Assembly: GCF_019457905.1 (NCBI RefSeq)
Contig: NZ_JAHZSV010000002.1
Coordinates: 1-64,000 of the forward strand
DNA length: 64,000 nt
Direction of reading: 5' to 3'
DNA from: Flagellimonas abyssi
GTDB lineage: Bacteria; Bacteroidota; Bacteroidia; Flavobacteriales; Flavobacteriaceae
Shown in pieces: positions 3,749 through 42,528 of this stretch. The number at the start of each line of letters is the position of its first letter. Within the stretch, counting starts at the first letter, position 1. Below the pieces are notes generated by a model. It made no database searches. It was not told where the DNA came from and saw nothing but the letters and a program-made list of their open reading frames with translations. Both the position numbers and the translations under genes were made by a program.

Positions 3749-3791
3749 CAAAGATCTATTACTGAGTTTTCCTAAAAGATGATATATGTCA
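3749..3791 (-). promoter_or_regulatory. FNR/Crp-like box plus -7 element, YceI-porin promoter
   Basis: Palindrome TGATATATGTCA (3780-3791; a mixed half-site copy of TGAY-N4-RTCA) is followed on the minus strand after 23 bp by GATCTTTG (3749-3756), 7 of 8 positions matching TAnnTTTG. The predicted start is near 3745, centring the box near -41.5. Confidence 0.6.
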
Positions 3792-3963
3792 GGTTTTTCC
3801 TAAATGGTTGGTTTTTAACAGCAGAACCGTCAAAATTTTCTTTCTTTTTCTAAAAAAAGTTGGATTAATCATTTCTGTGGTATACAAAAATCATTCAACC
3901 GATCGTGTTTGTCCAGCGATTTTCCCAAGAGTGAACTTTGACTTCTCCTCAGAGCCAAAAGGC

Positions 3964-4006
3964 TGATTTTTATCATATTCTAACCTTCTTCCAGCCACTA
4001 CTTTTA
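3964..4006 (+). promoter_or_regulatory. FNR/Crp-like box plus -7 element, ppdK promoter
   Basis: Palindrome TGATTTTTATCA (3964-3975), then 23 bp, then TACTTTTA (3999-4006), 7 of 8 matching TAnnTTTG. The predicted transcription start near 4010 gives a leader of about 38 nt to ATG 4049 and excludes the longer reading frame upstream. The rest of the 3728-4048 gap holds nothing else that I recognise. Confidence 0.65.
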
Positions 4007-4048
4007 CGTATCAATTTTAACACATATCAATCTTTAATAGATATACAT

Positions 4049-6769
4049 ATGGACACACTTGTAGAAAAACAGCTCAGCGTATACTCATTTGGCAATAAAA
4101 AGGCAGATGGTGGACGCGATATGAAGAACCTGCTTGGGGGCAAAGGCGCCAACTTGGCCGAAATGAGCCGAATCGGTATTCCTGTACCTCCCGGCTTTAC
4201 CATTACAACTGAAGTTTGTACACAATATAATGAAGAGGGACGTGATGCGGTCATTGATCGCATAGAGCCCGAAGTAAGGAATGCCATAAATCATATTGAA
4301 GAAACCATGGGGGCCATATTTGGCGATGATGAGAACCCATTATTGATATCCGTCCGCTCTGGTGCAAGGGTCTCCATGCCCGGTATGATGGATACCGTGC
4401 TTAATCTTGGACTTAATGATGAATCCATAAAAGGTGTCATCAAAATGACCGGAAATGAAAGATTTGCTTGGGATTCCTACCGAAGGTTCATTCAAATGTA
4501 CAGCAGCGTGGTGATGGGACTAAAACCAGAATCCAAGGACGACCTTGACCCTTTCGAGGAAATCATCGACCACTTAAAGGACAAAAGAAGAATTGAGCAG
4601 GACACCCAGTTTACCGTTCAAGACCTTCAGGATTTGGTGTATGACTTCAAGGACATCGTTAAAAAAAGAACAGGAGAGCCCTTCCCCAATAATCCTTGGG
4701 ACCAACTTTGGGGAGCCATTGCAGCGGTGTTTGACAGTTGGAACGGGGATAGGGCGATATACTACAGAAAAATGCACGGATATCCCGAAGATTGGGGAAC
4801 CGCCGTTAACGTACAGGCCATGGTCTTCGGAAACATGGGCGAGGATTCCGGTACAGGAGTTTGCTTTACCAGGGATGCCGGAACCGGGGAAAACAAGTTC
4901 AATGGTGAATATTTGATCAATGCCCAGGGCGAGGATGTTGTGGCCGGTGTCCGCACACCACAACAGATCACATTGCTGGGTTCTCAACGTTGGGCCAAAT
5001 TGGCACAGGTGGAAGAAGAGGAACGCAAAGAAAGTTATCCTTCCCTAGAAGAGCTCATGCCCGACATTTACAAGGAACTGTTCGAGTATCAAAATAAGCT
5101 TGAAACACATTACCAAGATATGCAGGATATGGAGTTTACCATACAACAGGGCAAACTATGGATTTTGCAAACCCGTAATGGTAAACGTACTGGAGCTGCA
5201 ATGGTAAAGATCGCCATGGACTTGCTCAAAGAAGGTTCCATAGATGAAAAAACGGCCCTAATGCGCATAGAGCCCAATAAACTGAACGAACTTCTCCACC
5301 CCATCTTTGACCTAGAAGCCTTGCAAGAAGCAGATGTGATCGCCCAAGGACTCCCCGCCTCTCCCGGTGCGGCCACAGGACAGATCGTTTTCTTTGCTGA
5401 TGAGGCCAGCAAATACAAGAACAGTATTTTGGTACGTGTGGAAACATCTCCCGAAGATGTGGAAGGCATGAACATTGCCAAGGGCATCGTAACGGCCCGT
5501 GGAGGTATGACTTCCCATGCTGCCGTTGTTGCCAGAGGTATGGGAAAATGTTGTGTCTCAGGTGCAGGTGCTCTCAAGATCAACTATAAGACCCGGACTT
5601 TAAAAGTCGGCGACCACGAGTATCACGAAGGCGACTGGATTTCCATCAATGGTTCTACCGGAAATATCCTGGAAGGAAAGGTTGCGACAAAGGAACCTGA
5701 ATTGAGTGGCGAATTTGCCGAATTAATGGAACTCTCTGACAGTTATGCCACCATGGAGGTCCGAACCAATGCCGATACGCCCAAAGATGCGCTTATCGCA
5801 CGAAACTTTGGGGCAAAAGGAATCGGGCTTACCCGTACCGAGCATATGTTCTTCGAGGTGGACCGAATCAAAGCCATGCGTGAAATGATTTTGGCGGACA
5901 CCATAAAAGGCAGGAAACAGGCCCTTAAAGAGCTGCTCCCTATGCAACGTAAGGACTTTGAGGGAATTTTTAGGGCCATGGAAGGTCTTCCCGTTACCGT
6001 GAGGTTATTGGATCCACCGTTACATGAATTTGTGCCCCATCAATTGGCCACACAAAAGGAGTTGGCAGAAGAGCTGCACATTTCCTTGGCCGCTGTGAAA
6101 GGAAAAGTGGCGGAACTGGAAGAATTTAATCCGATGATGGGCCATCGTGGCTGTAGATTGGGAAATTCATACCCAGAAATCACTGAAATGCAGACGCAGG
6201 CAATTTTGGAGGCTGCCCTCAATGTGAAGAAAGATGGCATCAACATGAAGCCCGAAATTATGATTCCTTTGGTAGGAACCGTGGAAGAATTCAAACAGCA
6301 AAAGGCCATAATCGATACAGTTGCGCAAGATATCTTTAAAAAGAGAAAGGATACCGTGGAATATTCCGTAGGTACCATGATCGAGGTACCAAGAGCAGCC
6401 TTGATAGCGGACAAGATTGCCGAAACAGCAGACTTCTTCTCTTTTGGAACAAATGACCTTACCCAAATGACGTTTGGATACTCTAGGGACGATTCCGGCA
6501 AGTTCTTGCCCACCTATCTTGAAAAAGGTATTTTAAAAGAAGATCCATTTGAAGTATTGGACCAAGAAGGCGTAGGACAATTGGTGGAACTTGGAACCCT
6601 ACGGGGACGTATGACTAGGGCCAACCTAAAAGTAGGCATATGTGGCGAACATGGTGGCGAACCAAGTTCTGTTGGCTTCTGCCAAAAAGTGGGAATGAAC
6701 TATGTGAGCTGCTCACCCTTTAGGGTACCCATTGCGAGGGTTGCAGCGGCACAAGCAGCAATAGCATAA
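4049..6769 (+). CDS. ppdK: Pyruvate, phosphate dikinase
   Basis: A 906-aa enzyme, the usual length for PPDK, interconverting pyruvate + ATP + Pi and PEP + AMP + PPi in the cytosol. The N-terminal ATP-grasp part is visible (LLGGKGANLAEM, VRSGARVSMPGMMDTVLNLG), then the swivelling phosphohistidine domain with GGMTSHAAVVARGMG (catalytic His about residue 490), and the C-terminal PEP/pyruvate barrel with GLTRTEHMF, GTNDLTQMTFGYSRDD and GICGEHGGEP (catalytic Cys about residue 865). The reading frame is open further upstream, but ATG 4049 matches the family N-terminus and lies downstream of the predicted transcription start. It is followed by its own terminator. In bacteria lacking PFK flexibility or under low energy, PPDK allows PPi-driven glycolysis or gluconeogenesis. 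Its promoter carries the same Crp/FNR-like box as the stress island 30 kb away. Confidence 0.97.
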   Translation: MDTLVEKQLSVYSFGNKKADGGRDMKNLLGGKGANLAEMSRIGIPVPPGFTITTEVCTQYNEEGRDAVIDRIEPEVRNAINHIEETMGAIFGDDENPLLISVRSGARVSMPGMMDTVLNLGLNDESIKGVIKMTGNERFAWDSYRRFIQMYSSVVMGLKPESKDDLDPFEEIIDHLKDKRRIEQDTQFTVQDLQDLVYDFKDIVKKRTGEPFPNNPWDQLWGAIAAVFDSWNGDRAIYYRKMHGYPEDWGTAVNVQAMVFGNMGEDSGTGVCFTRDAGTGENKFNGEYLINAQGEDVVAGVRTPQQITLLGSQRWAKLAQVEEEERKESYPSLEELMPDIYKELFEYQNKLETHYQDMQDMEFTIQQGKLWILQTRNGKRTGAAMVKIAMDLLKEGSIDEKTALMRIEPNKLNELLHPIFDLEALQEADVIAQGLPASPGAATGQIVFFADEASKYKNSILVRVETSPEDVEGMNIAKGIVTARGGMTSHAAVVARGMGKCCVSGAGALKINYKTRTLKVGDHEYHEGDWISINGSTGNILEGKVATKEPELSGEFAELMELSDSYATMEVRTNADTPKDALIARNFGAKGIGLTRTEHMFFEVDRIKAMREMILADTIKGRKQALKELLPMQRKDFEGIFRAMEGLPVTVRLLDPPLHEFVPHQLATQKELAEELHISLAAVKGKVAELEEFNPMMGHRGCRLGNSYPEITEMQTQAILEAALNVKKDGINMKPEIMIPLVGTVEEFKQQKAIIDTVAQDIFKKRKDTVEYSVGTMIEVPRAALIADKIAETADFFSFGTNDLTQMTFGYSRDDSGKFLPTYLEKGILKEDPFEVLDQEGVGQLVELGTLRGRMTRANLKVGICGEHGGEPSSVGFCQKVGMNYVSCSPFRVPIARVAAAQAAIA

Positions 6770-41483: not shown

Positions 41484-41488
41484 TTGCA

Positions 41489-42403
41489 CTATGCTAAGTT
41501 GGTTTTTTCCAGGGATTCAAACAACGACTTTTGTTCCGGGGTCAGGTTCTTGGGCATTTGTACCATATAAGTTAGGTACAGGTCGCCAAACTGTCCCTCC
41601 TTTTTATATTTCGGGAACCCTTTCCCCTTGAGTTTCACCTGTGTTCCGTTATCGGTCCCGGGAGCTACTTTTAATTTCACTCTTCCTGTCAGCGTCTCCA
41701 CCTGTATCTCTCCGCCCAAAACAGCTTTGATCAAAGGGATTTCAATGGTTTTGTACAGATTTTCCCCGTCGCGTTTAAAAGTTGTATTGTTAACGATGGA
41801 AAAGGTAATGTAGAGATCTCCTGCCGGGCCGCCTTCGATACCAGGACCACCATGCCCCTTGATTTTAATGGTCTGACCATCTTCTACACCTGCGGGAATG
41901 GTCAAGCGGATATTTTTTCCGTTCACCGTTAGCGTTTGTTTTTGGGTTGTGTAGACATCCTTTAGGTACAATTTTAATTCAGCGTTGTAATCCTGTCCCC
42001 TAAACCGTACCCTTTGGCCACCGGAACCAAACCCGGCACTTCCGCCGCCGAACATCGACTCAAAAAAGTCCGAAAAATCCTGGGCAGAACCTCCAGAGCG
42101 ACTGTACGTATACCCCGAACCAGTATTTTGACGTGCATGCTGTGAACGTGATTGCTTTGCTTTTTCAAACTCTTCTGCATGTTGCCAATCCTTACCATAC
42201 TCATCATATTTTTTTCTTTTGGAGGAATCGGATAATACTTCATTAGCTTCGTTCACGCGCTTAAAGTTCTTCTCCGCCTCCAGATCGTTGGGATTAAGAT
42301 CAGGATGATATTTCCTTGCCAACTTCCGATAAGCCTTTTTAATCTCATCGGTGGATGCTTTATTGTCCACCCCCAATACTTTATAATAATCGATAAAATC
42401 CAT
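41489..42403 (-). CDS. cbpA: CbpA-type DnaJ-family co-chaperone
   Basis: A 304-aa type II J-protein: J-domain at residues 1-70 with helix III/loop HPD in [16 protein letters not shown], a G/F-rich linker (about 95-130, [11 protein letters not shown]), and two C-terminal substrate-binding beta domains ([63 protein letters not shown]). There is no zinc-finger region, which separates it from DnaJ proper. It activates DnaK ATPase and is a stress/stationary-phase protein in E. coli as CbpA. ATG 42403 is 48 nt downstream of the predicted start. It is divergent from upp, both sharing one operator. Confidence 0.93.
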
Positions 42404-42454
42404 AAGTCAATCTAGCTAGAAATCTGAGTTTGGTTGAACCGTAAACTACCTTGT

Positions 42455-42528
42455 CAAATTTCGCTAAAATCTTCTTTCTTCACAATGACCTATGTCAGAA
42501 CATCCCACTTTGCCTTCAAAAGTTTTTG
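42455..42528. promoter_or_regulatory. Shared FNR/Crp-like box for divergent cbpA and upp promoters
   Basis: Palindrome TGACCTATGTCA (42486-42497). Leftward at 23 bp lies GAAATTTG (42455-42462, 7 of 8); rightward at 23 bp lies AGTTTTTG (42521-42528), where only the TTTG part fits. Predicted starts near 42451 and 42532. The leftward one is convincing, the rightward less so. Confidence 0.58.

Follow-up and report, generated by a model that had tools for sequence, protein, structure and literature searches.

A Crp/FNR-type box 23 bp from TAnnTTTG promoters across Flavobacteriaceae, probably used by two regulators

Proteobacterial FNR/ANR regulons contain class II sites, centred at −41.5. In the FixL-FixJ-FixK cascade of rhizobia, the intermediate FixJ consists of a receiver and a LuxR-type helix-turn-helix (HTH), and the output domain of DevR/DosR is LuxR-type too, unlike the Crp output described here. 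We analyzed a 64,000-nucleotide stretch of Flagellimonas abyssi (contig NZ_JAHZSV010000002.1, positions 1 to 64,000; hereafter the window), in which an earlier note had described nine intergenic palindromes of the form TGAY-N4-RTCA (boxes), set at a fixed distance from TAnnTTTG-like −7 elements and ascribed to one Crp/FNR-type activator. The boxes, their spacing, their conservation and their co-occurrence with either of two regulators can be read directly from the genomes. One regulator is a receiver-Crp fusion (REC-Crp) encoded in the window, and the other an FNR-like protein encoded elsewhere in the genome. We put at about 0.72 the probability of a Flavobacteriaceae low-oxygen regulon in which the boxes, as class II sites centred at −41.5, are used in common by these two proteins as activators.

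The system shares with FNR/ANR regulons a Crp/FNR-type palindrome, the class II position, the kinds of target and an FNR-like protein that aligns with FNR structures. It differs in that the outer base is A or C rather than the T of TTGAT, the −7 element is TAnnTTTG, one FNR cysteine position is lost, with C54 invariant instead, and the box is apparently common with a response regulator. Like the rhizobial cascade, it combines a FixL-like PAS (Per-Arnt-Sim) kinase, a Crp/FNR-type output and fixNO/fixI-type targets; unlike that cascade, it has a receiver fused to the Crp-type domain, so that the FixJ step would be skipped, and a PAS domain of its own that lacks the distal Arg of FixL. The DevR/DosR and OsdR dormancy regulons, as described in parts of PMC5069765, are similar in having a response regulator that answers to hypoxia and a uspA promoter among the targets, but the box is another one. 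NmpRSTU of Myxococcus xanthus also places an oxygen-use regulon under two-component control, there with an NtrC-like regulator and sigma-54 (PMC11841059, in part). The box-promoter pairs of the window are as follows.

3780..3791, minus strand: box TGACATATATCA, 23 bp to GATCTTTG (3749-3756); YceI gene
3964..3975, plus strand: box TGATTTTTATCA, 23 bp to TACTTTTA (3999-4006); ppdK, start ATG 4049
34748..34759, minus strand: box TGATTTAAATCA, 23 bp to TATTTTTG (34717-34724), 6 of 6 letters of the −7 element; hypothetical 34220-34693
35307..35318, minus strand: box TGATATAAATCA, 23 bp to TATTTTCT (35276-35283), 4 of 6 letters of the −7 element; hypothetical 34773-35237
36244..36255, minus strand: box TGATGCAAATCA, 23 bp to TAACTTTG (36213-36220); usp 35339-36181
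37178..37189, minus strand: box TGATATTTATCA, 22 bp to TAAACTTG (37148-37155); usp 36294-37127
39789..39800, no strand, common box: 23 bp to AAAATTTG (39758-39765, minus strand); kinase operon, weak
39789..39800, no strand, common box: 23 bp to TATATTTA (39824-39831, plus strand); gene 39855
41163..41174, minus strand: box TGACAGACGTCA, 23 bp to TACTTTTA (41132-41139); usp 40263-41084
42486..42497, no strand, common box: 23 bp to GAAATTTG (42455-42462, minus strand); cbpA, weak
42486..42497, no strand, common box: 23 bp to AGTTTTTG (42521-42528, plus strand); upp, weak

All nine boxes are present, identical to those first listed. The window contains 13 copies of TGAY-N4-RTCA, compared to 5.42 ± 2.28 in dinucleotide shuffles, a chance level above the four or so originally estimated, and 13 occurrences were reached in 1 of 100 shuffles. 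According to gene calls, nine of the 13 lie in intergenic DNA, which makes up 3,473 of the 64,000 bases, and the remaining four (20746, 34374, 45905 and 58687) are inside coding sequence. At 23 bp, 10 of the 11 promoters carry at least four of the six −7 letters, whereas no other distance between 8 and 38 bp gives this in more than four promoters; for at least five letters, the corresponding numbers are 8 and at most 1. The earlier count of ten promoters at 23 bp and one at 22 bp, the latter being usp36294, was thereby reproduced, with a loose match (4/6) at hypothetical 34773-35237 and upp.

In 153 exact boxed promoters, T follows the box in 99% of cases and A or C precedes it in 91%, giving the extended form (A/C)TGAY-N4-RTCAT. 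Start sites of F. psychrophilum place TAnnTTTG at −12 to −5 (PMC9723704, in part). Combined with the 23-bp spacing, this puts the box centre at −41.5, the class II position, with the −7 position borrowed from the F. psychrophilum starts in that source. Lack of a −33 TTG element was considered as proof of activator dependence: TTG at −24/−23 relative to the −7 element is seen in 0-1% of the boxed promoters, but even in 168 plain ones it reaches only 4-5%, too little for such a proof. The box sits where a −35/−33 element would be, as might also be expected of a repressor operator, and spacing alone gives no sign of the regulatory effect. However, one-base precision relative to the −7 element fits contact between the bound protein and RNA polymerase, and the gene content is of the type induced at low oxygen, making repressor operators a very improbable explanation.

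The spacing holds well beyond the window. In the 4.4-Mb genome (111 contigs), we counted exact boxes followed at 8-38 bp by an equally exact TAnnTTTG, the genome-wide check that the earlier note had proposed. There are 25 such pairs (16 with TGAT, nine with TGAC), of which 16 are spaced by 23 bp, one by 24 bp, none by 22 bp and eight by other distances; the reversed pattern totals four pairs over all spacings. When up to two mismatches are allowed, 183 sites at 23 bp are found versus 98 for the reversed pattern, so that this looser set blends weaker sites with chance matches. Across 149 genomes of the family (one per genus, at least 90% complete), the exact 23-bp pair occurs 1216 times and the reversed pattern 24 times, with at least one exact site in 139 of the 149. 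Around REC-Crp genes, 80 named loci (1.5 Mb) were scored for sites with at least 5/6 −7 letters: 424 lie at 23 bp, 11 at 22 bp, 12 at 24 bp and 5-24 at each other spacing. Every one of the 80 loci has at least one site, although these loci are mutually related and hence the counts do not represent independent events. In a scan of 158 genomes of the phylum for the box followed by T, matches were seen in 44 genomes, including 16/16 of the same family, two genomes of a sister family (6 and 8 matches), 14 of 21 in the rest of the class (1-6 matches) and 12 of the remaining 119 (1-2 matches). Together with promoter conservation, the spacing within the genome and across the 149 family genomes supports the earlier assignment of a Crp/FNR-type box in class II position, and argues for a real, family-wide regulon far larger than the window.

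To name the targets, we used Pfam and the genes adjoining 23-bp sites outside the window. Sites are present before ccoNO (a CcoN-CcoO fusion), at the FNR-like gene, at the divergent P-type ATPase with a FixI-type metal-binding domain, and at a HemN-like radical SAM protein whose HemN_C score (23.8 bits) is slightly below the cut-off of 24. Three further usp genes have them, as do genes for an S30AE (HPF-type) protein, cytochrome c, an Rrf2 regulator, NadA, OmpW, a ferritin-like protein, a thioredoxin-like protein, TonB, DoxX, an old-yellow-enzyme-type oxidoreductase, a pyridine-nucleotide oxidoreductase and a biotin/lipoyl protein, the last with a uridine-kinase-type gene divergent. Several boxed genes have no Pfam family above cut-off, and for some sites in the fetched stretches no downstream gene was found. 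This content recalls FNR/ANR regulons (oxidase, hemN, usp, OmpW). In F. psychrophilum under oxygen limitation, the cbb3 oxidase is strongly induced, as are enzymes of haem synthesis, and the passages of PMC9723704 on low-oxygen induction do not name a regulator.

Two proteins of the window are candidates for sensing and response.

37217..38263, minus strand: REC-Crp regulator; receiver, cyclic nucleoside monophosphate (cNMP)-binding fold, Crp HTH (ATESLIR recognition helix)
38241..39737, minus strand: sensor kinase, PAS-PAS-HisKA-HATPase, first PAS domain (PAS1) FixL-like; overlaps the REC-Crp gene

REC-Crp and the FNR-like protein both score above cut-off for PF00027 and PF13545, as members of the Crp/FNR superfamily do. 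The receiver residues D9, D10, D52, S82 and K104 of REC-Crp are kept in eight aligned rows. In place of the receiver and LuxR-type HTH that define FixJ, REC-Crp combines a receiver with the cNMP fold and Crp HTH. cAMP was considered as the ligand of REC-Crp and set aside: the cassette lacks Arg-Ser, the motif found there in CRP, in the 21 rows viewed. A second REC-Crp type, 41-46% identical, also exists in the family (G103:C80, G093:C1, G050:C1 and others), and four genomes with this type only (42-44% identical) average 20 sites, with the FNR-like gene in 4/4.

The kinase resembles FixL through PAS1. Among 15 solved matches at E ≤ 0.01, 13 are named FixL, DosP, haem PAS sensor or YddU, and FixL is the best (1.6e-11); the second PAS domain matches 3bwl, another sensor protein, and gave no FixL or DosP match. 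A PAS1 His, found in 71/78 rows, corresponds in the alignment to the second of the two histidines in RHEH of FixL 1d06, a residue we take to be the proximal haem ligand of FixL. A distal Arg is a further feature of the FixL haem-PAS. By sequence, the kinase beside REC-Crp resembles the FixL type in the His, although not in the distal Arg, and it may bind haem.

The FNR-like protein, encoded beside ccoNO/fixI, has C5, C8, C54 and C107 in 25/25 rows, and these four invariant cysteines make it a candidate iron-sulphur oxygen sensor. Among solved structures it matches an FNR (9qlt) best, followed by the Crp/Fnr-family regulator 2gau and further FNR chains, and C5, C8 and C107 align with cysteines of the FNR chains. 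It lacks the FNR hallmark of four iron-sulphur cysteines at FNR positions, C54 being invariant instead. The AlphaFold model (mean predicted local distance difference test score 77; below 60 for residues 1-20) is too weak at the N-terminal cysteines for their distances to be judged. REC-Crp shares 30% identity with the FNR-like protein over 213 residues. Of the 12 cNMP-binding-domain matches in the genome, these two have the ATES-IR recognition helix; two of the other ten could not be read at the helix, one being broken by a stop and the other lying at a contig end. In two relatives (loci L107 and L108), a single cluster holds the REC-Crp and kinase genes together with a usp gene, ccoNO, fixI and the FNR-like gene, a physical link between the two regulators.

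We then compared site numbers with regulator content in the 149 genomes, calling REC-Crp present at E ≤ 1e-70 and the FNR-like protein at E ≤ 1e-43. As the next genome-best match (37%, 1.6e-42) is a different paralogue, the FNR-like cut rests on identity and grouping. Genomes with both regulators have 13.35 sites each (n = 43), those with REC-Crp but without FNR-like 8.77 (n = 31), those with FNR-like but without REC-Crp 6.45 (n = 55), and those with neither 0.75 (n = 20, ten of them with zero). Rank tests, which ignore kinship, give P < 1e-8 for each single-regulator group versus neither. Nor can the loss be put down to small genomes, since the nine neither-regulator genomes of at least 2.5 Mb have 0-5 sites; compared to these nine, the single-regulator groups give P values of 1.7e-5 and 3.3e-5, kinship again being ignored. 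Main spacing is preserved in both groups: among the 150 matches listed for REC-Crp-only genomes (14 genomes), 61 are at 23 bp, 14 at 24 bp and 5 at 22 bp, with a mean of 2.5 elsewhere, and among the 150 listed for FNR-like-only genomes (14 genomes; list drawn from 31 of the 55), 44 are at 23 bp, 9 at 24 bp and 7 at 22 bp, with a mean of 3.2 elsewhere. Because genomes with either regulator alone keep boxes and those with neither have almost none, the box is probably used by both proteins. The regulon reading of the earlier note stands, whereas its single activator gives way to a box probably common to REC-Crp and the FNR-like protein. Readings in which one regulator is the sole explanation were rejected on these counts.

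One such reading is that the FNR-like protein alone reads all boxes, with REC-Crp simply inhabiting genomes rich in low-oxygen genes. The 6.45 sites per genome kept in the 55 genomes without REC-Crp, and the conservation of ccoNO and fixI sites there, are in line with this idea. It is nonetheless quite unlikely, given that the 31 REC-Crp-only genomes keep 8.77 sites each at an unchanged main spacing, and that a site (23 or 22 bp) lies directly past the REC-Crp stop in 70 of the 78 loci of sufficient length. A divergent-side site is present in 40/73 REC-Crp loci.

The base preceding the box bears on a second possibility, that REC-Crp alone reads the window boxes and the FNR-like protein has a separate set. 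REC-Crp-only genomes have C at this position in 103 sites and A in 125 (C = 45%), versus C in 61 and A in 223 (C = 21%) in FNR-like-only genomes; averaged over genomes having three or more such sites, the C share is 0.46 (29 genomes) versus 0.21 (41 genomes). Among the loci fetched, C prevails at usp sites (28/41) and A at respiratory sites (35/43), although 33 of these 43 come from loci selected around the FNR-like gene. These biases would fit separate sets, but they are gradual: neither base is missing from any group, and the helix and main spacing are alike. We therefore regard separate sets as unlikely. The base was also considered as a clean divider of the two regulators and rejected, the bias being of degree, with both bases everywhere.

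Conservation was assessed in eight near loci, scoring the last box within 220 bp upstream, such that earlier boxes could escape. The closest locus, L133 of Allomuricauda aurea (REC-Crp 99%), keeps all nine promoters in reach, with YceI and ppdK lying outside it, and L134 (REC-Crp 88%) keeps the box at the same spacing in 7/9. The 23-bp box of usp35339 is present in 7/8 near loci, including 5/5 of L135, L136, L137, L151 and L204, and usp36294 and usp40263 have a 23-bp site in 4/5 of these five. The usp36294 spacing is 22 bp in L133 and L134, and 23 bp in L135, L136, L137, L138 and L204; L138, a 5-kb locus, keeps this site. On the gene 39855 side, the common box is kept in 7/7 near loci having the gene, and in 10 of the 20 REC-Crp loci that were fetched as L093-L112, gene calls place a 23-bp box before it. 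The YceI gene of one other genus (L112) also has a 23-bp site. Both hypotheticals keep their boxes in L133 and L134, and the more distant loci L093 and L101 have 23-bp sites before genes similar to hypothetical 34220-34693. Such genes occur in several REC-Crp loci. Conservation of the promoters thus holds for usp and gene 39855; the kinase-side, cbpA and upp promoters are lost in L134, and those of the hypotheticals are confined to close relatives. In L134, the kinase-side box is kept with just 3/6 −7 letters, at least four being reached in L133 alone.

Several observations weigh against the two-activator regulon. Some concern the promoters: the cbpA/upp box, kept in L133, is absent in L134, and these genes were not found in L135, L136, L137, L151 and L204; the kinase side has no −7 element at 22-24 bp in these same five loci; and the hypotheticals are boxless in the four further near relatives where each gene was found. 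We consider the kinase, cbpA and upp promoters weak. Others concern the regulators. The third N-terminal Cys of FNR aligns with Asn in the FNR-like protein, which scores 113.4 bits for NCBIfam Fnr PRK11161 versus a cut-off of 228 and is hence not filed as FNR; the PAS His is lacking in 7/78 kinase rows, two as gaps; and the distal Arg of FixL, present in 51/78 rows, is Leu in the window's kinase. As to the counts, these ignore kinship, and score cut-offs were chosen after scores were known; one genome with neither regulator (G121) has five sites; the secondary 24-bp spacing is above background in both single-regulator groups (14/150 and 9/150 listed); and the base before the box is unequal between the groups, yet does not separate the regulators. 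Finally, DNA binding, activation, oxygen as the signal and phosphotransfer in this organism are what we infer from sequence.

Two further genes of the window belong to the candidate regulon.

39855..40262, plus strand: target gene, 135 amino acids, conserved; 23-bp box, gene calls
33194..34201, minus strand: D-2-hydroxyacid dehydrogenase (Pfam above cut-off), second gene downstream of box 34748

Gene 39855-40262, which diverges from the kinase gene, has no Pfam or NCBIfam family, leaving its earlier name, 'TerB-like', without support from either. The gene formerly called ldhA encodes a D-2-hydroxyacid dehydrogenase according to Pfam, with NCBIfam D-lactate dehydrogenase models below cut-off. 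The small boxed proteins 34220-34693 and 34773-35237 matched no Pfam or NCBIfam family above cut-off. Elsewhere in the window, 9607-20355 is a single open frame of ~3,580 amino acids.

In the two-activator regulon, low oxygen would free the FixL-like kinase, leading to phosphorylation of REC-Crp, and would also stabilise an iron-sulphur form of the FNR-like protein. A dimer of either, through the ATES-IR helices, would bind the same box at −41.5 and contact the RNA polymerase that sits on the TAnnTTTG −7 element. This would switch on ccoNO (the high-affinity oxidase), the FixI-type ATPase, the HemN-like protein, usp, OmpW, the S30AE protein and the dehydrogenase of the window. More tentatively, at somewhat under even odds, we suggest a one-step FixL-to-FixK-like circuit, in which a haem-PAS kinase acts on a receiver-Crp fusion whose box is common with a non-canonical iron-sulphur FNR.

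The box, its position and the gene content are of a known kind. Three features appear new: a box that an FNR-like protein and a response-regulator Crp seem to share, a FixL-like kinase acting on REC-Crp as proposed, and spacing from TAnnTTTG that is precise to one base. A literature search found no paper joining TAnnTTTG, crp and Bacteroidetes, and no such Flavobacteriaceae regulon among titles and abstract beginnings, the supplements of PMC9723704 and most subscription papers falling outside its scope. Crp/FNR homologues near MalR in a Flavobacteriales genome were predicted to sense carbon, based on a MalR matrix from Bacteroides (PMC8510549, in part).

For an entire family of Bacteroidota, these data provide a candidate low-oxygen regulon resolved to the base, along with two named candidate regulators, and the table of regulator presence and absence serves as a naturally occurring collection of single and double losses. 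They place class II geometry of the Crp type on TAnnTTTG, an unusual promoter, and suggest a shortened FixL cascade. If the one-step circuit is true, two oxygen signals would add on one box across Flavobacteriaceae.

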